Positions 17,464-50,149 of a DNA stretch of 64,000 nucleotides are shown piece after piece (the first letter of the stretch is position 1; each line of letters opens with the position of its first letter). The position numbers and the translations under genes are program-made. This DNA comes from an uncultured Dehalococcoidia bacterium (GTDB lineage Bacteria > Chloroflexota > Dehalococcoidia > Lucifugimonadales > Lucifugimonadaceae): NCBI GenBank assembly GCA_958295935.1, contig OY282385.1, forward strand, positions 2,087,545 to 2,151,544, written 5' to 3'. Under the pieces are notes generated by a model, which worked only from the letters and a program-made list of their open reading frames with translations, searched no databases and was not told the DNA's origin.

Positions 17464-17662
17464 CGCCTGCGAGGAAACCTATCTGGATGGCCAGAAGATA
17501 GAGAGTGCTGTGGGTCTATCCCCGCGCGTGCGGGGGAACCGAGGTGTCCACCAAATGGACGCCCTCGAAGGGAGGTCTATCCCCGCGGCTGCGGGGTAAC
17601 CGGTTGCTGCCACGTTAACCACTTGCGCCACTCAGGACTATCCCCGCGCGTGCGGGGGAACC
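17452..17662. CRISPR. CRISPR sub-array A, four repeats
   Basis: Repeats at 17452-17479 (degenerate), 17513-17540, 17574-17601 and 17635-17662 are separated by 33-bp spacers, giving a 61-bp period. The 28-bp repeat begins GGTCTATCCCCGCGCG and ends GCGGGGGAACC, with CCCCGC and GCGGGG as palindrome arms. It resembles the reverse complement of the E. coli type I-E repeat, so crRNA is probably transcribed from the - strand. No cas gene is in the window. Confidence 0.93.
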
Positions 17663-17706
17663 TTGCCTACGCCTTGCTGGATGCCCCGCTATGGCCCGAT
17701 GCTGGG

Positions 17707-18180
17707 CTACTTGGGGCCAAACACCTTGCAATCAACAACCATAAGTATATCCCCTCGATTGACCCTCGTTGTTTCGTCCCCGCCATGCATTCTCATGCCG
17801 CCAAAATTGTCCTTCATTAGGGTTACGTCCCCCATATTCCCACAAGTGAAGTCATACCTGCCTACTGGAATGTCATCACCTCCAGTCCAAGTGTTGACTC
17901 TATCCAAAGAATCGTAGAACAATTTTGGTTGGCTTGTTTTTGTTGGAGTAACGCGGGATGTTCGTTGTGCAACTGGCGTAGCCGTAGGGGGGATGTTGAG
18001 TTGCGTTGGTTGTTTGGGTTGTGCAACTGGCATGACCGTAGGCGGCGGGCTGGGTTGCACAAGTTGTGACTCATTCGTCGGTTGATTGCAGGTGCTTATG
18101 ACAATCGCGACAATTATGAGTAACACAAATGCCGTGCAAACAACGCCGATTCCGATTCCAATCTTCTTGATCATGATCAT
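17707..18180 (-). CDS. membrane-anchored secreted protein inside a CRISPR spacer position (insert 1)
   Basis: 157 residues. A single N-terminal membrane segment (GVVCTAFVLLIIVAIVIS) is followed by a Pro/Thr-rich linker of about 65 residues with PTxxPVAQ repeats, and a C-terminal domain of about 60 residues (GGDDIPVGRYDFTCGNMGDV). That domain resembles the GxDIxPGxY extracellular modules of Gram-positive-type bacteria; function unknown. The gene fills the 597 bp between CRISPR repeats at 17635-17662 and 18260-18287, with a ribosome binding site (AAGGAAG). Both flanks are near-identical copies of one 33-bp spacer (17663-17695 and 18227-18259). Its GC content is visibly lower than that of the chromosomal genes, which suggests foreign origin. 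Confidence 0.7.
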   Translation of the reverse strand: MIMIKKIGIGIGVVCTAFVLLIIVAIVISTCNQPTNESQLVQPSPPPTVMPVAQPKQPTQLNIPPTATPVAQRTSRVTPTKTSQPKLFYDSLDRVNTWTGGDDIPVGRYDFTCGNMGDVTLMKDNFGGMRMHGGDETTRVNRGDILMVVDCKVFGPK

Positions 18181-18259
18181 TCTTCCTTTTCGACCTACTC
18201 AACCATCCTGGCGTTGCAGTGTCTGATTGCCTACGCCGTCCTGGATGCCCCGCTATGGC

Positions 18260-18348
18260 CAACTATCCCCGCGCGTGCGGGGGAACCGGGAAGAATCGGA
18301 AGCCTACGCGGCGCAGGAAGCAACTATCCCCGCGCGTGCGGGGGAACC
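18260..18348. CRISPR. CRISPR sub-array B, two repeats
   Basis: Repeats at 18260-18287 and 18321-18348 with one 33-bp spacer. Both start CAACTATCC instead of GGTCTATCC, a variant shared only by this pair, and end GCGGGGGAACC. Confidence 0.92.
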
Positions 18349-18651
18349 TCAGCCATCCTTGCGTTCCTGCGCTACCTCGTCATTCAGTGCCTTGAAACGG
18401 CGTAGAGATTCCCCAACGCTTACAATCTTGGCCCAATTTGTCGCTATCCACGCCCACCCCAACGCTGTAGGAATGAGTAGGCCAATCGCCAGCAACGCAC
18501 GCTGAACGGCCGGGTTGGGAACAACGGGAGAGCGAAGTAGCAGCCACCAGCTCATCGTTTCCATCGCGTCGAAAACCGACCGCGTGTAAAACGCCGTGTA
18601 GACCAACAATCCAGAGATCGCCAGCATCAATATCACAAATCCTATTGCCAT
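18349..18651 (-). CDS. small two-TM membrane protein inside a CRISPR spacer position (insert 2)
   Basis: 100 residues with two hydrophobic helices: an N-terminal FVILMLAISGLLVYTAFY and a second around ALLAIGLLIPTALGWAWIAT. A charged tail follows. I recognise no family; size and layout would suit a phage or plasmid small membrane protein. The last base of its stop codon directly abuts the CRISPR repeat ending at 18348. The start codon has an AAGGAG ribosome binding site, and the insert ends 40 bp later at the next repeat (18692). The whole insert of 343 bp is thus one complete gene with its translation signal and nothing else. Confidence 0.7.
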   Translation of the reverse strand: MAIGFVILMLAISGLLVYTAFYTRSVFDAMETMSWWLLLRSPVVPNPAVQRALLAIGLLIPTALGWAWIATNWAKIVSVGESLRRFKALNDEVAQERKDG

Positions 18652-18691
18652 CTTTCAGTTCTCCTTGCCACCGCTCACGCGGTACCAGCCC

Positions 18692-19270
18692 GGTCTATCC
18701 CCGCGTGTGCGGGGTAACCATGATGCTGCCACATTGACCACTTCCGCCACTCAAGTCTATCCCCGCGCGTGCGGGGGAACCGGGGATCGTGACGTGCTTG
18801 TCATCCTCTATCACTGTCTATCCCCGCGCGTGCGGGGGAACCCGGGGCGGGTATTCCGCACGAGGCGTTATACAAGGTCTATCCCCGCGCGTGCGGGGGA
18901 ACCGAAGGTACTACTTCCTTCTTTGTGTCATCGCCAGGTCTATCCCCGCGCGTGCGGGGTAACCACTACATCCCCAAGACGGCAAACACGCCAATCCGGT
19001 CTATCCCCGCGCGTGCGGGGGAACCGGAGCGAGCATGACCGCAGCGATGATCATACCCGGTCTATCCCCACGCCTGCGGGGGAACCCACCATGATCGCTA
19101 GTGATTTCTTCACCAACACCGGTCTATCCCCGCGCGTGCGGGGGAACCGATTCAACGCCGAAGTCTATGCGCTTTCCGCTGGGTCTATCCCCGCGCGTGC
19201 GGGGGAACCCGTCGATGGCTGCGGCTGCCTGTAGGTGCATCGGGTCTATCCCCGCGCGTGCGGGGGAACC
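18692..19270. CRISPR. CRISPR sub-array C, ten repeats
   Basis: Repeats start at 18692, 18754, 18815, 18876, 18937, 18998, 19059, 19121, 19182 and 19243, with 33-34 bp spacers. Most match the GGTCTATCC...GGGGGAACC form; the copies at 18692 and 18937 end GGGGTAACC, and 19059 has CACGCCTGC in the loop. No leader-like A/T-rich stretch is present at either end. Confidence 0.96.
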
Positions 19271-19334
19271 TCTTGTTGCGCTTTCGTCATTGTGTCTCTC
19301 CTCGCGCTTGCCTACGTCGTTGTTGGCGGGTCAA

Positions 19335-19631
19335 CTATCCTTCCCCCTTGTCCGTCCGCCCCCTTAGCGCCCTCACATTGGGCACTTCCAGCGGCAAGGT
19401 TGCCTTGAACCCGTCAAGCCACAAATCCTGTTCCGCTCTGTCAAGGATTGGGCAATGCGCCACCATGTAGGCAATCCTGCTTATCAAGTCGGCGGACGTG
19501 ACTCCTTTCTTCCACGCGTCCGCCGTTACTGTGGCGGCAATGGTTCCTAGCGTGAAAGCCGCCGCCCTATCACACAGTGGTTCCATTTCAGCGGGAACCT
19601 TGTGGTCTTGGTCGTCCGTCGATTTCGTCAT
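19335..19631 (-). CDS. hypothetical protein inside a CRISPR spacer position (insert 3)
   Basis: 98 residues starting MTKSTDDQDHKVPAEMEP, soluble and mostly helical, with a Cys-containing AHCPILDRAEQD segment. I recognise no family. Start codon ATG at 19631 is preceded by GGGAG. The gene lies in the 377 bp between repeats ending 19270 and starting 19648. At the left end of the insert, 19271-19312, there is a second ribosome binding site plus ATGACGAAAG start that is cut off by the CRISPR repeat. The insert therefore looks like a contiguous slice of another replicon carrying one full gene and the first codons of the next. Confidence 0.65.
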   Translation of the reverse strand: MTKSTDDQDHKVPAEMEPLCDRAAAFTLGTIAATVTADAWKKGVTSADLISRIAYMVAHCPILDRAEQDLWLDGFKATLPLEVPNVRALRGRTDKGEG

Positions 19632-19647
19632 TGTGTGTCTCCCTTGC

Positions 19648-20286
19648 GGTCTATCCCCGCGCGTGCGGGGGAACCCACAAGGCCATCCCGCACATGCCGC
19701 AGGATACGGGTCTATCCCCGCGTGTGCGGGGTAACCATGATGCTGCCACGTTGACCACTTCCGCCACTCAGGTCTATCCCCACGCGTACGGGGAACCCGA
19801 TTCCCCGTCCCATACGTCAACGGTCGTCCCTAGTCTATCCCCGCGCCTGCGGGGAACCCGTGCCGCACCATCTCAACCTTGCAATCCCCGAAGGTCTATC
19901 CCCGCGCGTGCGGGGAACCCTGTCTTCGTCCAGCCGCCGTTCCATGTAGTCGAGGTCTATCCCCGCGCGTGCGGGGAACCCGTGTAGACGGCCCGCTCTT
20001 CTTCTTTAACAGCCGGTCTATCCCCGCGCGTGCGGGGAACCCTTGCCCCAGCATTGGGCAAAGATCGCGTACAAGGGTCTATCCCCGCGCGTGCGGGGAA
20101 CCCCTAACTGCCATCCAGGGAATATAATGCGGATTAGGTCTATCCCCGCGCGTGCAGGGGAACCGATGGCTCCAGAATCTGCGACCGACTCACTTCGGGT
20201 CTATCCCCACGCCTGCGGGGAACCGTACCAACGACCGAGATACTTGCTACGATACCGCAGTCCATCCCCACGCCTACGAGGAAGCC
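19648..20286. CRISPR. CRISPR sub-array D, eleven repeats
   Basis: Repeats start at 19648, 19709, 19771, 19832, 19893, 19954, 20015, 20076, 20137, 20198 and 20259. From 19771 to 20103 the repeat end is GGGGAACCC, not GGGGGAACC. The last copy (20259-20286) is degenerate (GTCCATCCCCACGCCTACG) and runs directly into a dispersed 9-bp-periodic element. Confidence 0.96.
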
Positions 20287-20287
20287 C

Positions 20288-20317
20288 CTCATCCCCATCA
20301 CGAAAATCACAGTTTGT
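20288..20317. repeat. 9-bp-periodic dispersed element, copy 2 (short)
   Basis: ATCCCCATCACGAAAATCAC followed by AGTTTG; abuts the last CRISPR repeat, so the array is bounded by direct copies of this element. Confidence 0.75.
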
Positions 20318-22917: not shown

Positions 22918-24354
22918 ATGCAATTCACACCCAGTGGATCCGCGGCACATCTTAAAGAAGCGATCGCGGGCTACACCGAATCGCAATACAGGATTTCACA
23001 CCCGCTAGTATTCACCGAAAGATCAGCCCTCCTCCGACGACCGGGAGTCATAGCCCAAGACCCCTTCATCGAGGCAACACCAGCTTTTACCCCCGCCCGG
23101 CTGCTGAGCCAACTGGAACGAGCGCACCCGGAAATCATCCCAACGGGCCTCTCCAGGCTCATCGAACACGGCGTCCCCGTAGACAGGTTTCCCCTGTACA
23201 CCCACCAGGAAGAAGCGCTCCTCGCCAGCTTTACCGACGCCCCCAACCTGCTCGTCGCCACCGGAACCGGATCCGGCAAGACCGAAGCATTCGTCCTCCC
23301 CATACTCGCCAGAATTCTCAGCGAGGCATCCGCATGGACCTCTCCAAACGCCCCCGCCTCTGATGGCTACTACAGCGCAGAGGAAAGTAAGTGGCAACAC
23401 TCGCGGCGCCATGAAACCAGGCAAGCCGCGCTTAGAGCCATAATCCTGTACCCCATAAACGCCCTGGTAAACGACCAAATGTCCAGACTTCGCAGGGTGC
23501 TCGCGTTGAACGGATCACCCGACTGGCAGCGGCAACACCTCAGCGGCAACCTGATCCACTTCGGAATGTACACCAGCCTGACACCCCCAACCAGAGGACC
23601 CGAACACAGGGCCAAACGCCAGCAGTTTGAGGAATACCTGCAGCACCTGGAAGAGGAATGGGAGAGCCTCACCGACGAATTGCGCAGCGCCGGCAATTGG
23701 CCAGCCGTTGGAGGCCCCGAAATGCTGTGCCGATGGGACATGCAAGCCGCGCCCCCGGACATACTCGTCACCAACTACTCCATGCTGGAGTACATGCTCA
23801 TCCGACCCATCGAAAGCCCAATCTTCGATGCCGCAAAAGCCTGGCTCGATGAGGCCGACGACCGAGCCGTCACGCTTGTTATAGACGAGGCCCACACCTA
23901 CACCGGCGCTAAAGGCACAGAGGTCGCACACCTCGTCCGACGCCTCAAGGAAAGACTGGGCATAAGCCCCGGCTCCAACAAACTCCGCGCCATAGCCACC
24001 AGCGCGTCGATCCCGAATCTAAAGCGCGCACAAGGCGACATCCTCACGTTCACCTCCGAACTATTCGGAGAGCCCCAGGATAGCTTCTCAAGTGCCAAGC
24101 CAAGAGCCAGTCTCAAGGCCACCGACCCGAGTCTCCATTTGTCTAGATCCGAGTCAGTATCTGAACCACTTGTGAAAGAACCGCCAAGGGGGCATCCACA
24201 CCCCGCTGAAGCACCGTGCCTTCCTGAAACGGTCAAGGGCTCTACCTATCTTGATCTTGAATTTTGGAAGGCGCCGAGCCCAGCGCACCTGGTTGCGATG
24301 GATCCAATAGTGGGATTGGCAAGCCAGGCTCCAATTTCCAATCGACGGACATAG
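22918..24354 (+). pseudogene. N-terminal fragment of a DEAH-type helicase (DUF1998-helicase family)
   Basis: The first ~400 residues are a superfamily 2 helicase ATPase core: PLYTHQEEALLASF, Walker A LLVATGTGSGKTEAFVLP, AIILYPINALVNDQMSRLR, VTNYSMLEYMLIRP, the DEAH box TLVIDEAHTYTGAKGTEV and motif III AIATSASI. Homology fades after FTSELFGEPQDS, near 24083; the frame then runs antisense through the DUF6527 gene to a stop at 24354. The matching C-terminus is found at 27145-27720. Helicases of this kind occur in Druantia- and DISARM-like defence loci. The second RecA-like domain is missing, so the gene is broken. Confidence 0.82.
24074..24083. repeat. left copy of 10-bp direct repeat at insert border
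   Basis: CCCAGGATAG, repeated at 27135-27144 at the other border of the ubiquitin-like module. May be a junction signature or chance. Confidence 0.5.
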
Positions 24355-24546
24355 GGAGACGGACTTCCCATCGAATGTCATCTCCCAATCGGTGGGGTCT
24401 AGCGGTGTCACCACCTCGTTCCCACATCCACAGCAACATCTGTGCATGGCTGTGGCGAAAGGTATTGACACGTATAGCACGTTGTCATCCGGGGTATCTG
24501 GGATGTAGTTGACGAACTCGTGCTGGAGCGATTTGATTCTAGTCAA
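24154..24546 (-). CDS. DUF6527-family metal-binding protein of the ubiquitin-like module
   Basis: 130 residues. The pattern LYVSIPFATAMHRCCCGCGN, VVTPLDPTDWEM, SVSLCPSIGNWSLACQSHYW and IHRNQVRWA is what I recall of DUF6527, a small family found beside multiubiquitin and ThiF genes. Cysteines and histidines in the CCCGCG and CxSHYW segments are probable zinc ligands. Its biochemical role is unknown. The ATG overlaps the ThiF stop codon (ATGA), so the two are translationally coupled. Its 3' end marks the left border of the module inserted in the helicase gene. Confidence 0.78.
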   Translation of the reverse strand: MTRIKSLQHEFVNYIPDTPDDNVLYVSIPFATAMHRCCCGCGNEVVTPLDPTDWEMTFDGKSVSLCPSIGNWSLACQSHYWIHRNQVRWARRLPKFKIKIGRALDRFRKARCFSGVWMPPWRFFHKWFRY

Positions 24547-25715
24547 CCTTTGTCCTCGTTGATCAGTTTATTGCCGTCGATTTGGTATAAGTTCGAATGC
24601 TCCTTCTCAAGATCGACGTAGAACCCGAGGGTCTTCTTCCACTTGATAACGGCCAGAGCCGCGTTCAGTGCGTTGAGGTCAGCAATCTGGATGTTGCGTG
24701 AGTAGTCGTCTTCGATGTCGCCATCCGAAAGCTGGAGTGTCGGGCGGACTTGGTCACGAGATCGGTCCGTGCTCAGGGTCACCCTCAGTTGCCCAATTAG
24801 TGACCTTCCATCTTTAAGCACGCCCATCCCTACATCGATGAAAGGGATGCCGAACTCCTCTAGTTTTTCTACTACGAGCCTTCTGGGGCGACCCTTGTCA
24901 ACGGCTATGAACACGAAGTCCATTCCTCTCAGGGAGTCCACCACCGATTCATCCACGTATCCGTGGGCGAAGATGTTGCGCCGCATCTCAGAGTACGTGT
25001 CTCTGTAGTAGGCCGCCTTCTCTGGTGCGGCCTTCAATGTTTCCACGGATGGCGCGCCCGGAGATCGGAAAGCGTTGTGCTGTCCAAATTTGTCGCCATC
25101 GAACAAGTGGATTTCTCTCACCGGGGTCTTGGCTACCAAGTCGAGTATGTATGAGCCCGTGCCTCCTAGCCCCACGATGGCTACTGAGCCAACCTTTAGC
25201 TTTTCTGTTATGGCCCCGATGCCAACACGGCTCGAAGCCGTATCGATGTACTTGAACACCGAGTCTTCGTCCTGAGCCTCAAGGACCGCAAAAGTCTGAG
25301 CGGTGACACTCGGGTCAATTGACCGGGCTGGTCCAGAAATGATGGCTTCGTAAGTGGTCATCTTCTGGTAGTAGTCGGGATAGCCTTCAGGCGGCTTACT
25401 CGAAAACACGTGGTCTACTACCAACCCGTTGCCTAACTCTTGGCGACCGCTAAAGTTAAGTATCTGGGTGAGTGGCTCACCTTCTCGGTCGCAAGGCATG
25501 TCTCCAGCGAACATGACTTGATGCTTATCGGGCTTTGCCGTGACATCACCCGCTAGAGTCAATTCCGAAACCAGAGTCCCGTACTCAATGGCTCTACCTT
25601 GCCTGACATACGGGATGTGCTTCAGGAGAAGGTAATCGGACCGCACTTCGACTTCGTAGCCGTCGTCCTCAAGCTCCTTGAGGTCGGCGCTACGACTTAT
25701 CAGTGAATGAGACAT
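24543..25715 (-). CDS. ThiF/E1-like adenylyltransferase with N-terminal DUF6791-type domain
   Basis: About 390 residues. The C-terminal half is an E1/ThiF adenylation domain: VAIVGLGGTGSYILDLVAKT is the nucleotide-binding glycine loop, EIHLFDGDKFGQHNAFRSPG the ATP/Mg segment, and DFVFIAVDKGRPRRLV the Asp-Arg region. It should adenylate the C-terminus of the ubiquitin-like protein encoded just upstream. The N-terminal half matches DUF6791 (KPPEGYPDYYQKMTTYEAII). The protein has one cysteine only, in MFAGDMPCDREGEPL, within that N-terminal domain; none lies in the ThiF domain. I chose the ATG at 25715; one at 25745 is possible. It overlaps its neighbours on both sides. Confidence 0.82.
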   Translation of the reverse strand: MSHSLISRSADLKELEDDGYEVEVRSDYLLLKHIPYVRQGRAIEYGTLVSELTLAGDVTAKPDKHQVMFAGDMPCDREGEPLTQILNFSGRQELGNGLVVDHVFSSKPPEGYPDYYQKMTTYEAIISGPARSIDPSVTAQTFAVLEAQDEDSVFKYIDTASSRVGIGAITEKLKVGSVAIVGLGGTGSYILDLVAKTPVREIHLFDGDKFGQHNAFRSPGAPSVETLKAAPEKAAYYRDTYSEMRRNIFAHGYVDESVVDSLRGMDFVFIAVDKGRPRRLVVEKLEEFGIPFIDVGMGVLKDGRSLIGQLRVTLSTDRSRDQVRPTLQLSDGDIEDDYSRNIQIADLNALNAALAVIKWKKTLGFYVDLEKEHSNLYQIDGNKLINEDKG

Positions 25716-25977
25716 TGAAGACCGTCCCGTCCTGAATTTTGACATTCTGACCTGGTGAGAGCCTTCCCTCTAGCGGCCTCCCCGCGCCGTTCCGGTAGCT
25801 CACAGTGAACATGATGTCCGGCCTAGAGGGAGGTTGGGCAAATGCTTGCCTCACCACTTCGTCGAAGGAGAGTTCGCCATTGGTCGACGGTACGATCCTC
25901 TTCCGTCCATTCACAATAATGGCGACCTTGTCCTTCTCCTCGTCCTCAATGGTGACAACCTTCTTGTCCTCAATCAT
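25690..25977 (-). CDS. ubiquitin-like protein (multiubiquitin-domain family), single domain
   Basis: 95 residues starting MIEDKKVVTIED after an AAAGGAG site. The sequence VAIIVNGRKRIVPSTNGELS, FDEVVRQAF and DIMFTVSYRNGAGRPLEG, LSPGQNVKIQDGTVFNVS matches the beta-grasp multiubiquitin family (PF14452 as I recall it), but with only one domain. The C-terminus is FTDKS with no di-glycine, as is usual in this family, so the nature of the conjugated end is open. It is first in a three-gene operon with E1-like and DUF6527 genes and has the best promoter in the module. A role in protein tagging in antiphage defence is inferred from family context. Confidence 0.8.
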   Translation of the reverse strand: MIEDKKVVTIEDEEKDKVAIIVNGRKRIVPSTNGELSFDEVVRQAFAQPPSRPDIMFTVSYRNGAGRPLEGRLSPGQNVKIQDGTVFNVSFTDKS

Positions 25978-26014
25978 CGTCAGACTCCTTTCGTCTGTCC
26001 TGTAAGATGCGGCA

Positions 26015-26030
26015 GTACCAATGCCGGTAC
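26015..26030. promoter_or_regulatory. inverted repeat, probable operator O1
   Basis: GTACC and GGTAC separated by 6 bp, just downstream of the -10 box of the ubiquitin-like operon promoter. Shares the GGTAC half-site with the palindrome at 26073-26087. Confidence 0.55.
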
Positions 26031-26038
26031 CTATGACT

Positions 26039-26067
26039 AGGATAAGCGACACCTTGGCGTGTGTCAA
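26039..26067 (-). promoter_or_regulatory. sigma70-type promoter for the ubiquitin-like operon
   Basis: On the - strand, TTGACA (26067-26062), a 17-bp spacer and TATCCT (26044-26039) give a near-consensus promoter about 60 bp upstream of the start codon at 25977. Two GGTAC-type palindromes flank it. Confidence 0.65.
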
Positions 26068-26081
26068 GCAAATGGTACACT
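26054..26081 (+). promoter_or_regulatory. probable promoter for the XRE-ImmA/IrrE pair
   Basis: TTGGCG (26054-26059), 16 bp, TACACT (26076-26081). The -10 box lies inside the TGGTACA-C-TGTACCA palindrome, so repressor binding would block it (autoregulation). Confidence 0.5.
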
Positions 26082-26087
26082 GTACCA
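26073..26087. promoter_or_regulatory. perfect palindrome TGGTACACTGTACCA, probable operator O2
   Basis: Two perfect 7-bp arms around a central C, lying over the -10 region of the rightward promoter and upstream of the leftward -35. It is the natural binding site for the dimeric XRE protein encoded at 26109. Confidence 0.7.
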
Positions 26088-26108
26088 ATTCCTGTACGGG
26101 GAGGCCGC

Positions 26109-26594
26109 ATGGACAAAGACAGGCTGGAACTCAGCGACCTAGGTCGTCTAGTCGTAGATGAACGGAACCGGAGGGGGATGAGCCTCCGCGAGGCGTCATC
26201 TGCCATAGGAATCCCCTTCAACACCCTGGCGAGAGTCGAGAAGGGGCATGTCCCGGACCTCCCTAAGTTCAAGAGACTCGTCGAGTGGTGCGGTGCCGAC
26301 ATCAGGCAGTTCTTTGAAGTCCAAGAAAAGGCTGCGGCTACCACGGACGTAATCGCTGAGCACCTCCGGGCAGATCGCAACCTCCCGCCCGCAGCTGCTG
26401 ATCAGATAGCAGGCATCGTCAGCGAGCTCTATCAGGCACTGGCGCGCCCCAAAGAAATCGCTGCCGTGCATCTGCGGGCTGCTAAGACATTTCGTCCAGA
26501 TGCGGCTCGCGCCTTGGCGGTGTTGCTCAACGACCTGAATGAAGCGCTCATAGAGGAACTTACTGATGGCCCTGAGGAGAGGCTTCAAGTCTGA
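26109..26594 (+). CDS. XRE-family transcriptional repressor
   Basis: 161 residues. The N-terminal helix-turn-helix is clear: DLGRLVVDERNRRGMSLREA, then SAIGIPFNTLARVEKGHVPD and FKRLVEWCGAD. The C-terminal half is helical and probably mediates dimerisation or protease recognition. ATG at 26109 follows GGGGAGG. It is paired with an ImmA/IrrE-type metalloprotease, the layout known from ImmR-ImmA of ICEBs1 and DdrO-IrrE of Deinococcus, where the protease cleaves the repressor. The operators at 26015-26030 and 26073-26087 suggest it represses both itself and the divergent ubiquitin-like operon. Confidence 0.85.
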   Translation: MDKDRLELSDLGRLVVDERNRRGMSLREASSAIGIPFNTLARVEKGHVPDLPKFKRLVEWCGADIRQFFEVQEKAAATTDVIAEHLRADRNLPPAAADQIAGIVSELYQALARPKEIAAVHLRAAKTFRPDAARALAVLLNDLNEALIEELTDGPEERLQV

Positions 26595-27144
26595 AGCTGA
26601 GAGAATCGCTAGGCGCGTGCGAGCGGAGTTGGGGATGAGTGCCGGTCATTCTGTCACGCCCGAGGTACTCGCCAAGCTACTAGGCATTGAGGTCCGAGCG
26701 GGGGACGAGTTGATCCACCCACAGAGATTCGCTGAACTTGAACAGATTCAGCCCGGCGCTTTCTCGGCCTGTACGTTTCGGCCTTCGGCTGATCGCATAG
26801 TCGTTGTATACAATCCGCGCTCCCCCAAATCGCGCCGGCGGAGCGATCTAGCCCATGAACTTGCACATGTCCTTCTCGATCACGAGTTGAGTAGGGTTGA
26901 GAAGCTAGGCGCTGCCACATTCCTCTCGTGCGATGCGATTCAGGAGGAGGAGGCTGCTTGGTTGTCCGGATGCCTTCTTCTTCCTAGGCCATTGCTCTTG
27001 GCAGAAGTACGTAGTGGATTAAGCGCGAAAGACATCGCAACGAGATGTGGAGTCAGCGAAGGGATGGCACGGTACAGACTGAATGTCACTGGCGTACTCA
27101 GGCAGAACCAAGCCCTCCAGAAGAAGAGCCCGTTCCCAGGATAG
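26566..27144 (+). CDS. ImmA/IrrE-family metallo-endopeptidase
   Basis: 192 residues. The zinc protease motif HELAHVLLDHE lies near residue 105, preceded by RRSDLA, with a downstream acidic EEEAAWLSGCLLLPR that supplies the third ligand as in IrrE/ImmA. The C-terminal part (SAKDIATRCGVSEGMARYRL) looks like a small helix-turn-helix. The start overlaps the repressor gene by 29 bp, with AGAGGA as ribosome binding site. By analogy it would cut the XRE repressor on a signal such as DNA damage or infection and switch on the ubiquitin-like operon. Its stop codon marks the right border of the module inside the helicase gene. Confidence 0.88.
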   Translation: MALRRGFKSEAERIARRVRAELGMSAGHSVTPEVLAKLLGIEVRAGDELIHPQRFAELEQIQPGAFSACTFRPSADRIVVVYNPRSPKSRRRSDLAHELAHVLLDHELSRVEKLGAATFLSCDAIQEEEAAWLSGCLLLPRPLLLAEVRSGLSAKDIATRCGVSEGMARYRLNVTGVLRQNQALQKKSPFPG

Positions 27145-27720
27145 GTTGGAGTCCGTCCCACACAAGACTCCTTCGGCCGTATCCAGGGCGAGGTGTTCAT
27201 CTACGACGACGTTCCCGGAGGCGCCGGTTACGCACGCGCAATTCAGGACAACCTGGAAGAAATCGCCCGCCTGGCCCTGCACGTCGGCAAAAACTGCCCT
27301 AACCAAGATTGCAGCGGAGCCTGCTACCACTGCCTACTTGGATACAGGAATCAACAAATACACAACTTGCTAGACCGCCGCCTGGCCGTTTCAGTCCTTG
27401 AATACCTGCTGGAAAACCGGTGCCCCAGTCTGAGCAGACAAGACGCATTTAACATGGCCTTGGGGCTGGAAGCGTATATGCGGAATTGGGAAATCACGGG
27501 CCCCGATGAATGCCCCGAACAGTTCGGCGCAGTATTCAAGACCTACAACGACTCCCCGATAGGGATACGGCCCATACACCCCCTTTCCACTCGACCCAAG
27601 TTGGACGTGATCGACAGGATCAGAGAGGCGACAGGTATATTGCCGAAAATCTATACCAGCTTCGACCTGCTGCGAAGACCGTTCTGGGTGGCAAACCACC
27701 TTTTCCGATCTCTAAGGTAA
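27145..27720 (+). pseudogene. C-terminal fragment of the DUF1998 helicase
   Basis: The frame resumes immediately after the protease stop with GVRPTQDSFGRIQGEVFIYD, then DVPGGAGYARAIQDNL, the four-cysteine zinc motif CPNQDCSGACYHCLLGYRNQ and LLDRRLAVSVLEYLL, which is the DUF1998 module at the end of these helicases. About 100 more residues follow (TYNDSPIGIRPIHPLS), possibly a nuclease-like or accessory end. There is no good start codon, so it is a remnant. Compared with intact family members, the second RecA-like domain and a long central region (several hundred residues) are absent between 24083 and 27145. Confidence 0.82.
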
Positions 27721-27893: not shown

Positions 27894-28514
27894 CTAGACG
27901 GACGGAAAAGCGCTTAGCAGCTTATCCGCATGGGTCTCAAACAGGATCTGACGGGCTAACGCAGTGCTCACTTTGTGACTAAATCCAGTCATCTCAGTTG
28001 GCGGCTTACAGGCAATCTTCATCGGAATCACATTGTCAGCATCCCCTATCAATCCCCGTAACCCATTTGCAGTAAGCGTCGTGCCGTCACCAGTATCTTG
28101 AATGTTCCCTGGGTCCACCATATCCGGCGCGCCAAATACGATACCTGTACCTGAAATTACGAAAAGCGTAGCAGTGTCCCACTTCCGCCATCCGCCGCCC
28201 ATCTTGTTCAACAGTTTCACAGACGCGATGCCGCGAAACGACCCTTTGATGGACAGCTTGCGATCGCGCGGCAACAGAATATCTCCCGCCGAAGATTGAT
28301 CGCTATAGAGCTTGCAATCGATACCAACAGACCGGAGGAGAGCGTAGGTGAACACCTCCACCGCGCCGCCAACCACAAATCGGTTCTCATGGATGGTGGT
28401 GTTATACCGCTCTAACAGCGTCGCTACCGCCTCTTCATACTGTCCCTGCGCCGTGCTCGAACAGTCCGCCTTTAGACGATCAAACACGCGTCGCTCAGAC
28501 GTGAACCGCGTCAT
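27894..28514 (-). CDS. probable type II restriction endonuclease
   Basis: 206 residues, overlapping the methyltransferase stop by ATGA. The segment SSAGDILLPRDRKLSIKGSF has the shape of a PD-(D/E)XK core: an Asp at GD, about ten residues, then S-I-K with the catalytic lysine. EVFTYALLRSVGIDCKLYSD precedes it as the expected helix and strand. I cannot assign a recognition site or a named subfamily; the call rests on this core and the partner gene. It may itself be intact. Confidence 0.7.
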   Translation of the reverse strand: MTRFTSERRVFDRLKADCSSTAQGQYEEAVATLLERYNTTIHENRFVVGGAVEVFTYALLRSVGIDCKLYSDQSSAGDILLPRDRKLSIKGSFRGIASVKLLNKMGGGWRKWDTATLFVISGTGIVFGAPDMVDPGNIQDTGDGTTLTANGLRGLIGDADNVIPMKIACKPPTEMTGFSHKVSTALARQILFETHADKLLSAFPSV

Positions 28515-29413
28515 GCCGTAATACGCTCGACGCGCGGCACCAGCTGAAATTCGCGCTGAGGAGGCGGTGCAAGTATACGTCGCTCAGCAAGGTCGAGGTA
28601 AGACCGCTCAATATCGTATCCAACGCAACGACGCCCATTCCGCAAGGCGGCAAGAGCAGTCTGCCCGCTGCCCAGGAACGGATCCAACACCTCGTCCCCC
28701 TCTTCGGAGTAGAGCAAGATCAATCGACGTGCAAGCTCTTCAGGATAGGGACATGGGTGGTCGATGGTATTCGGAGGAACTGGCGCAACGTGCCAGATAT
28801 TGTTTGCGATATCGCGCTTGAAAAGCTCATCGATATCCAAAACCTTTGCCTTGCCGCGCCTAGGCTCCCCAGGCTTGCGGAATATCAAGATGTATTCCGT
28901 CATGATGTTCGGGTAATAGTAACCGGCTTTTGGGTGCTGAATGAACACACCCGCACGCTTTACCCCGCCGGTAACCTTATTCCAGATAATGTCTTGGTGA
29001 AACTCCCATCCGATGCTGCACATGCGCTCGGTTATCAACATGGGAGTCGGATAATGCTTGCCCTTATAGAGAATAGTTCCAACCACAATCGCACAAAACC
29101 CACCCTTGACCGTCACGCGTAATGTTTCCGCAAAGACCTTCGATATGTTCTCAAGATAATCCTCGAAGGTATTGCCAAAAACTTGATACTCACGCTCGCG
29201 ATGCCACGCATCCTTATCCCCCGTAGCATGGATGTCGTAATCAACCGAATTCCAATACGGCGGAGAAGTAACAGTAAGCGCAACCGACTCACCGCCGCAC
29301 TGCGGCATCGTTATAGAAGACTTGCAATAGAAGCGGTAACCGGCCCCTTCAACCATGCCAGGGCGCCGATTCAGCTTGACCACCGCCCGCCCCGGCTCCG
29401 GGAATGATTGCAT
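28511..29413 (-). CDS. DNA methyltransferase, beta class (type II R-M partner)
   Basis: About 300 residues. Motif IV TSPPYWNSVDYD near the N-terminus and motif I DPFLGSGQTALAAL near the C-terminus give the beta-class order, so it methylates adenine N6 or cytosine N4. The AdoMet and target segments GFCAIVVGTILYKGKHYPTP and WHVAPVPPNTIDHPCPYPEE are typical. The start is uncertain: ATG at 29413 has a GGGGAG site, ATG at 29356 gives a shorter protein. It precedes the endonuclease gene, which ensures protection comes first. An IS1595-like remnant lies immediately upstream and overlaps the 5' region. Confidence 0.85.
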   Translation of the reverse strand: MQSFPEPGRAVVKLNRRPGMVEGAGYRFYCKSSITMPQCGGESVALTVTSPPYWNSVDYDIHATGDKDAWHREREYQVFGNTFEDYLENISKVFAETLRVTVKGGFCAIVVGTILYKGKHYPTPMLITERMCSIGWEFHQDIIWNKVTGGVKRAGVFIQHPKAGYYYPNIMTEYILIFRKPGEPRRGKAKVLDIDELFKRDIANNIWHVAPVPPNTIDHPCPYPEELARRLILLYSEEGDEVLDPFLGSGQTALAALRNGRRCVGYDIERSYLDLAERRILAPPPQREFQLVPRVERITA

Positions 29414-29598
29414 AAACAGACCAGCTCCCCATAAGTCAATCGCTTTGCCTTCAGCATCACAGCACCCGTCCGCACCGAAAAACGTTCCCGGCACTCTTTA
29501 CACCGGCAAGGCGCCTCCTGCCCGAGTGCCTTGCGAGGCTCGCACGAATAGTCCCGATTTGTCAAGACTTTTGGGACTCTTCTGCCCGAGCCTCGCAC
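29371..29598 (-). pseudogene. remnant of an IS1595-type transposase (zinc-ribbon part)
   Basis: CRCKECRERFSVRTGAVM and the following RLTYGELVCL resemble the zinc ribbon and start of the linker of IS1595-family transposases. No DDE catalytic part follows and the sequence before it is unrelated, so only about 40 codons remain. It may date from insertion of the restriction-modification genes. Confidence 0.5.
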
Positions 29599-49366: not shown

Positions 49367-50149
49367 TCAAACGCCTCGACCCCCGACCAGCTCGCCCAGA
49401 CCCCGCCACACCCCCACCAGATCCCTCAGCGCATCCAACGCCATACGACGCTCAGCGCCCGCACCCGAAGACTCCGCCCCAGCCGCCAAAGTGCCCGGAT
49501 GCAACGGCACCGGCGCAGCGCTTATCTCCAACAACTCCTGACGCCTGAAAATCGTCCCGCCGCCGCTGCCTGAACCGCGAGGCCCAATCTCCAGCGCACG
49601 AAAACCCACCGAAACGCCACGCATGAAACCCGTCGCATACAAACGAAGAACCTCCTGCGCAAACGACGTACCCGCAAACTCGATCGACGCCTTCAGTGAA
49701 TCACCCTCCACCCACACCCGAGTACTCCGCGCTATCGGAGGAAGATGGTACTGATGCGCCCAAAGAACCACCGGATTCTCACGATACGCATCCAGACGCC
49801 AACCACTCGCAACGATCACGTCACCCGACCGATCCTCCGACTCCACCGACGCCGTGATCGTCAACGAACCGCCCTCACGCAAACCCGCTCCCTCCCCCGA
49901 AGACGAGCCCCCGCGAACCTCCACCGTCCCGCCGTCCCCGCCCGAACCCCCATCCGCACCCTCCGCCGAACCGGCCCGCGACACCGACGAACCCCCGCCC
50001 TCCAACTCCCGCGCCGTCGCAACCGCAACACCGCCCGCAGCAGCAGGCGCCTCCACGCTCACCGGCAGCCAACCCAGATGCGTACCAACGCCGGTACGAA
50101 CGAAAAACCGACCGCCCGGACCATCAGGCCCGAAACTCAACTCGTCCAT
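49367..50149 (-). CDS. HK97-family prohead protease
   Basis: 260 residues. Family motifs begin after a Gly/Ser-rich N-terminal extension: SVESEDRSGDVIVASGWRLD, NPVVLWAHQYHLPPIARS with the catalytic His, and LYATGFMRGVSVGFRALEIG with the catalytic Ser in VSVGF, then RQELLEISAAPVPLHPG. It cleaves the capsid's N-terminal scaffold in assembly. The N-terminal ~100 residues (Gly-Ser-Glu-rich) are absent from typical members and are low complexity. The gene precedes the capsid gene as expected, but a Kef-type antiporter separates it from the portal gene. Confidence 0.85.
   Translation of the reverse strand: MDELSFGPDGPGGRFFVRTGVGTHLGWLPVSVEAPAAAGGVAVATARELEGGGSSVSRAGSAEGADGGSGGDGGTVEVRGGSSSGEGAGLREGGSLTITASVESEDRSGDVIVASGWRLDAYRENPVVLWAHQYHLPPIARSTRVWVEGDSLKASIEFAGTSFAQEVLRLYATGFMRGVSVGFRALEIGPRGSGSGGGTIFRRQELLEISAAPVPLHPGTLAAGAESSGAGAERRMALDALRDLVGVWRGLGELVGGRGV

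Follow-up and report, generated by a model that had tools for sequence, protein, structure and literature searches.

The stretch of DNA analysed here (the window) comprises 64,000 nucleotides from an uncultured Dehalococcoidia bacterium (assembly GCA_958295935.1, contig OY282385.1, positions 2,087,545 to 2,151,544) and contains a compact five-gene cassette, in which an operon on the minus strand encodes, in this order, a ubiquitin-like protein (Ubl) of the multiubiquitin family, a DUF6791-ThiF protein and a DUF6527 protein, while genes for an XRE-type repressor and an M78 metallopeptidase, which overlap by 29 nt, diverge from it on the plus strand (Table 1). The gene content is firm: the five genes lie where an earlier note, made without database searches, had placed them, and each has a Pfam match, including those to PF14452, DUF6791 and DUF6527 that the note had proposed as a check. 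The frames scanned against Pfam preceded the refinement of starts (DUF6791-ThiF, 24543-25745; Ubl, 25690-26088; XRE, 26061-26594), which placed the ATG codons of the Ubl, DUF6791-ThiF and XRE genes at 25977, 25715 and 26109, respectively.

Table 1. Genes and candidate regulatory sites of the cassette (positions in the window).
Feature	Position	Strand	Remarks
DUF6527 protein	24154-24546	-	130 aa, TTG start; Pfam PF20137 7e-25
DUF6791-ThiF protein (E2-E1 fusion enzyme, best reading)	24543-25715	-	390 aa; Pfam DUF6791 7e-59, ThiF 7e-12
DUF6791 domain (residues 1-145 of the enzyme)	25281-25715	-	predicted E2 fold
Ubl, single-domain	25690-25977	-	95 aa, end ...FTDKS; Multi_ubiq PF14452 1.9e-10
Overlap of Ubl 3' end and enzyme 5' end	25690-25715	-	26 nt
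XRE/Cro-type repressor	26109-26594	+	161 aa; HTH_3 5.6e-6, HTH_3/HTH_31 ~5e-6 (Pfam)
ImmA/IrrE (M78) metallopeptidase	26566-27144	+	192 aa; Pfam Peptidase_M78 4e-18
Operator-like site O2, GTACCAATGCCGGTAC	26015-26030		GTAC-N8-GTAC; downstream of Ubl -10
Ubl promoter-like site, TTGACA-17-TATCCT	26039-26067	-	consensus scan, consensus match only
15-bp palindrome, TGGTACACTGTACCA	26073-26087		overlaps O1, beside XRE start
Operator-like site O1, GTACCAATTCCTGTAC	26082-26097		GTAC-N8-GTAC; near XRE start

The kinship of the cassette with the Bub systems (BubA/BubB/BubCD; PDB 9ea4, 9eae, 9eav; PMC13373217) is firm. The ThiF half of the enzyme, which resembles ubiquitin-activating enzymes (E1), has BubCD as its best match in the PDB by profile comparison (Citrobacter BubCD, 1.9e-11), by Foldseek and by VIA-align (Z 24). 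Also in common are the multiubiquitin-family Ubl, a late DUF6527 gene, a Tyr residue before the same E1 helix and the divergent XRE/M78 pair, which occurs at the JAB-type Bub members L116 and L120 as well (L numbers designate homologous loci). A conjugating-enzyme (E2) domain may be a further common part, to judge by a predicted fold nearest to BubB. The window cassette differs in that this predicted E2 is fused to the E1 in the form of DUF6791, without sequence similarity to BubB, in that neither a JAB nor a phosphotransferase gene is present, and in that its Ubl ends in Ser rather than in a Gly-containing tail. It is a Bub variant in which the usual residues are missing from both the enzyme and the end of the tag.

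The earlier note saw no recognisable E2, E3 or JAB gene at the locus. Neither an E3 nor a JAB was found in the cassette, but the statement on the E2 needs revision, as DUF6791 has a predicted E2 (UBC) fold, an assignment that is good at the level of models. The AlphaFold 2 models for the enzyme have pLDDT (predicted local confidence) values of 83 and 94, the latter for DUF6791 alone, and the best VIA-align match of the DUF6791 model is BubB (9eae_C; Z 9.2, 119 aligned residues, root-mean-square deviation 3.5), followed by TSG101; the other leading matches are likewise E2 or ubiquitin E2 variant (UEV) domains (Cap2, UBE2S, UFC1, Atg3 and Ubc13), with Z 5.5 for the E2 domain of Cap2 (7tqd). Since this predicted fold is joined to a ThiF half nearest to BubCD, the most plausible reading of the protein is an E2-E1 fusion, an arrangement also found in Cap2 of the type II cyclic oligonucleotide-based antiphage signalling systems (CBASS). 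The one-chain architecture, the match to the Cap2 E2 fold and the CapH/CapP kind of switch are all features that the cassette has in common with the Cap2/Cap3 systems, whereas its Ubl is a separate protein and its E1 half is free of Cys; neither the cassette nor the genes directly beside it gave a Pfam or PADLOC match to a CD-NTase, a CBASS effector or a Cap3 JAB. BilABCD is likewise a bacterial Ubl conjugation operon, from which the cassette differs by the lack of a separate E2 or JAB gene, by the Ser-ended Ubl and by an E1 that is nearer to BubCD.

Across 102 aligned enzymes, the invariant features of the E1 half are the GxGGxG motif, D206, D208, H213, R217, K233 and Y338, and those of DUF6791 are H65, P74, S105 and Y122. 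No Cys of the E1 half is invariant. That of the window contains none at all, a firm observation, and Cys-free E1 halves make up 16 of the 102 rows in all, with two of the proteins lacking Cys over their entire length. The catalytic E1 Cys of the canonical thioester cascade (Bil, eukaryotic) is not present in the window E1 half, so that the Ubl would not be held as an E1 thioester. The sole Cys of the window enzyme is C75 of DUF6791, which is found in 94 of the 102 relatives (92%). BubCD and five JAB-type relatives carry a Tyr just ahead of the same E1 helix as Tyr338, and the title of PDB entry 9eav names a Y370F mutant of BubCD; the correspondence between Tyr338 and BubCD Tyr370 was drawn by eye from the flanking motifs.

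Among the strong matches to the ThiF half, by sequence and by fold, is MccB, an E1-like enzyme that works without a Cys on the C-terminal residue of a peptide. Together with the lack of an invariant Cys and the second place taken for DUF6791 by the UEV of TSG101, a non-catalytic E2 fold, this would suit a modifier of the MccB or ThiF type, which adenylates the Ser-ended Ubl so as to cap it or to make a Ubl-nucleotide or sulfur-carrier product while the E2 fold, like a UEV, merely clamps the Ubl. Such a function is unlikely, given that BubCD outscores MccB in both searches, that DUF6791 retains its invariant polar residues and, in most relatives, C75, and that the Ubl, E2-fold, E1-like and DUF6527 parts are common to the JAB-type Bub operons, which points to conjugation.

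The C-terminal end of the Ubl is as distinctive as the enzyme. The terminal Ser is firmly established: it is present in 101 of 102 homologues (Ala in the remaining one) and is preceded by Thr at position -4 in 100, giving a Thr-x-x-Ser ending; the C-terminal Gly of canonical mature Ubls is found neither in the window Ubl nor in any of the 102 homologues. A 'multi-ubiquitin domain protein' in the PDB (9cd2), which matches the window Ubl at 4.6e-6, likewise ends in TDKS. The tail is encoded within the overlap of the Ubl and enzyme genes, whose length of 26 nt is kept unchanged in 96 of 102 loci. Since such an overlap could conserve the tail on its own, the third codon positions of the enzyme frame in this region, mostly expected to be free of constraint from the enzyme, were compared with those in the rest of the same genes. 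With the reservation that the homologues are not independent, the third base is A in 96 of 96 cases at E1 codon 4 (background 0.156) and T in 95 of 96 at codon 7 (background 0.217). Because these two positions are near-fixed against the background, the tail is probably selected for its own sake, and the notion that the Ser is a mere by-product of the overlapping E1 start is rejected on the same counts. Among the JAB-type Bub Ubls, those of L107 and L116 end in FG and those of L117 and L118 have extra residues after FG, which agrees with the trimming expected of JAB.

Longer members of the family, with space for two or three Ubl domains, are common among the homologues. They would be compatible with a structural role in which the Ubls self-assemble into filaments or oligomers, a process that the E1-like enzyme would control instead of tagging targets; oligomerising bacterial Ubls were reportedly described by Gong et al. 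in 2025. For the window this role is distinctly improbable, as its Ubl has a single domain, and the Thr-x-x-Ser end next to an E2-E1 gene favours chemistry at the C-terminus.

The third product of the operon, DUF6527, has a Cys/His motif (C-x-C-G-C ... PS ... C-x-SHY) that is conserved in 17 and in 104 homologues and suggests that the protein is probably a small, zinc-ribbon or treble-clef-like, metal-binding partner; it may possibly act as a target-recognition or E3-like factor. A PDB sequence search with DUF6527 gave nothing significant, and neither DUF6791 nor DUF6527 was mentioned by name in the literature searched. DUF6527 is also the last gene of JAB-type Bub operons, which here comprise L107, L116-L118 and L120. 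In L107 (APH/TCAD9) and L116-L118, a phosphotransferase gene lies between the E1 and DUF6527 genes, and the JAB-type operons are preceded by a RES/Xre toxin-antitoxin pair in L107 and by XRE and ImmA/IrrE genes in L116 and L120.

The same gene set can be recognised in the polyUbl operons that Iyer, Burroughs and Aravind described in 2006 (row 6e; PMC1779556), which comprise a polyUbl, an E1 that carries 'a distinct domain in place of the JAB domain', called domain X and left unassigned there, and a metal-binding protein Y. The window cassette fits the domain X sub-type of this row, with DUF6791 as domain X and DUF6527 as protein Y; it differs in that domain X is now predicted to be an E2, and in the part of that paper that deals with row 6e there is no description of controllers, of the Ser end or of the lack of Cys.

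The divergent gene pair resembles the CapH+CapP, ImmR-ImmA and DdrO-IrrE switches, as the genes for a helix-turn-helix (HTH) repressor and an M78 protease overlap and diverge from an effector operon, although the protease is short and the repressor longer. The protease has an intact active-site motif (HELAH from residue 97; HExxH is present in 55 of 56 M78 proteins) and a PADLOC match to capP (1e-9), and the setting, an HTH repressor adjoining an M78 protease beside an immune-type operon, is that of CapH+CapP; XRE would have a role like that of CapH, ImmR or DdrO. The genome loci surveyed were the nearest 80 of at least 587, and the counts are not independent. Among homologous loci, an M78 gene within 3 kb of the E1 lies upstream in 54 places and downstream in 0. 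Of the genome loci, 69 have an upstream flank of 2.5 kb or more; an M78 gene is present in 40 of these and divergent in 35. When presence of M78 is mapped on a tree of 96 enzymes, 21 changes are needed, and at least 8 of them (gain or loss) are forced by well-supported branches.

Other controllers can take the place of the pair. WYL proteins are found in the controller position in L004, L006, L009 and L087, GHKL and STAS-winged-HTH pairs resembling CapK/CapS in L025 and L011 (by Pfam) and in L031, L034 and L055 (by eye), a fused XRE-M78 protein in L048 and sigma-like genes at some other loci; a co-oriented UvrD-type helicase gene precedes Ubls of three-domain length in L005, L007, L008, L019, L065 and L076, where no controller is present. 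A small DUF2188 gene separates the Ubl from the XRE/M78 pair in L003, L013, L016, L017, L022, L041, L059 and L066, many of them alphaproteobacterial.

XRE-M78 pairs are very common across prokaryotes, and 29 of the 96 operons on the tree were scored as 'other', without the pair, as might be expected if it were a separate module, such as a toxin-antitoxin or mobile-element switch, that merely adjoins the Ubl operon. This is improbable in view of the strictly upstream and mostly divergent placement, the repeated forced changes, and the operator-like sites around the Ubl promoter that are found again in the Chloroflexota relative L020, where the pair is kept at 73% identity. The recurrence is firm and the pair does not stand next to the Ubl operon by chance. 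The coupling of the Ubl and its E1-like activator to a repressor-protease pair, as put forward in the earlier note, is thereby upheld; its concern that absence of the pair elsewhere would mean chance pairing does not apply across the board, since the pair recurs, but neither is it a constant neighbour, being replaced by WYL, CapK/CapS-like, sigma-like or UvrD genes. The regulatory idea is right in kind but not new in kind, contrary to the note, for which conjugation set off by cleavage of a repressor would be novel. Control of immune operons by CapH+CapP has been reported already, with CapP, activated by single-stranded DNA, cleaving CapH, and 219 of 544 Bub operons have CapW or CapH+CapP as neighbours (PMC13373217).

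The intergenic region offers candidate sites for such control. Two GTAC-N8-GTAC sites, O1 and O2, flank the Ubl promoter-like site, and the motif occurs 3 times in the 64-kb window against an expected 0.19. The third copy (GTACCAACGCCGGTAC, 50082-50097) differs from O2 by one base and is distant from the cassette. L020, in which the E1 is 61%, the XRE protein 73% and the M78 protein 73% identical, retains CTTGACA, the downstream site (in the same place and with the same spacing) and a degenerate upstream site. These common sites provide the best sequence evidence that XRE may repress the Ubl operon. Upstream of the Ubl in about 35 homologous loci, palindromes share no motif beyond the nearest relative; each repressor probably has operators of its own.

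Taken together, the cassette is best read as a DNA-damage- or stress-inducible, Bub-like conjugation system that works without an E1 thioester, and it probably constitutes a self-contained, mobile and inducible unit of Bub type. At rest, XRE would bind the paired GTAC sites and repress the Ubl, E2-E1 and DUF6527 genes, and perhaps its own. A stress signal would activate M78, which would cleave the repressor; by analogy with CapP and IrrE, the likeliest signal is DNA damage or single-stranded DNA. The ThiF half would then adenylate the Ser-ended Ubl, for which JAB trimming would be unneeded, and the Ubl would be transferred, possibly via Tyr338, to DUF6791, where the invariant Ser105 or the mostly conserved Cys75 may be the acceptor, with DUF6527 perhaps selecting or presenting the target. 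In infection or upon DNA damage, proteins of the phage or of the host would then be the likely targets of the tag.

Several observations weigh against this reading. The E2 assignment rests on the predicted fold, because profile comparison with BubB-type E2s detects no sequence similarity (hhalign probability 0.1) and Foldseek by itself gives weak matches only; a PDB sequence search with DUF6791 also returned nothing significant. The Tyr338 correspondence is a visual one, and the conservation of C75 makes a thioester on the E2 half conceivable. No JAB has a Pfam match in the cassette, DUF6791 standing in its place, and no E3 was found. A search of the PDB at E<=0.01 gave no homologue of the window protease, whose likeness to CapP is at the family level, and the recurrence of its gene was scored in the nearest loci.

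The reading would suggest a fold and a role (E2) for DUF6791, a family found across many bacterial phyla and on plasmids, and connects the Bub systems of 2025-26 with the polyUbl operons described in 2006. The cassette offers a clean natural test of ubiquitin-like transfer without an E1 Cys and without a C-terminal Gly, and the exchange of XRE/M78, WYL and CapK/CapS-like controllers supports a DNA-damage response of these operons. More tentatively, it may represent a widespread class with a one-chain E2-E1, a Ser-ended Ubl, Tyr/Ser ester transfer, a dispensable Cys, no JAB and interchangeable DNA-damage controllers.

The cassette is mobile, defence-island DNA. It lies between two DruE-like helicase ends, at 22918-24114 (DruE, 1e-118) and 27193-27720 (MZB/DruE, 8e-23), which represent a remnant of the Druantia protein DruE consisting of approximately residues 7-390 and a C-terminal piece, with the middle missing; a relative with an open frame of 1887 aa is present elsewhere in the genome. 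No convincing terminal repeats or target duplications were found around the cassette inside DruE. The window copy of DUF6791 is the sole one among 76 family genomes, and the domain occurs in 3 of 251 genomes of the phylum, a rarity expected of acquired DNA. The E1 was found in at least 587 genome stretches, the core order of Ubl, E2-E1 and DUF6527 is kept across phyla and on plasmids, and 117 plasmid records from the E1 search, checked for gene order, contain the three-gene core. A single-sequence query returned no viral contigs, a profile search of them yielded 7 loci, mostly partial, and no phage record matched; a phage-encoded origin of the cassette is not favoured on these grounds.

The destroyed DruE and the TTG start of the DUF6527 gene might suggest that the cassette is itself decayed or silent debris. 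This is very improbable, as the five genes are intact and the active-site residues, the 26-nt overlap and the promoter- and operator-like sites are all kept.

The surroundings contain further features. An interrupted, type I-E-like CRISPR array (17513-20299; period ~61 nt, repeat GTCTATCCCCGCGCGTGCGGGGGAACC) lies to the left of the cassette, and a DNA methylase gene (27894-29494; N6_N4_Mtase 7e-38) may form a restriction-modification pair with the adjoining gene for a 206-aa protein, which has no Pfam or PADLOC match. A dispersed repeat containing CATCCCCATCACAAAAATCAC is present five times in the window (17420, 22789, 27772, 29774 and 33962), where none is expected by chance, and two of its copies flank the broken DruE gene together with the cassette.

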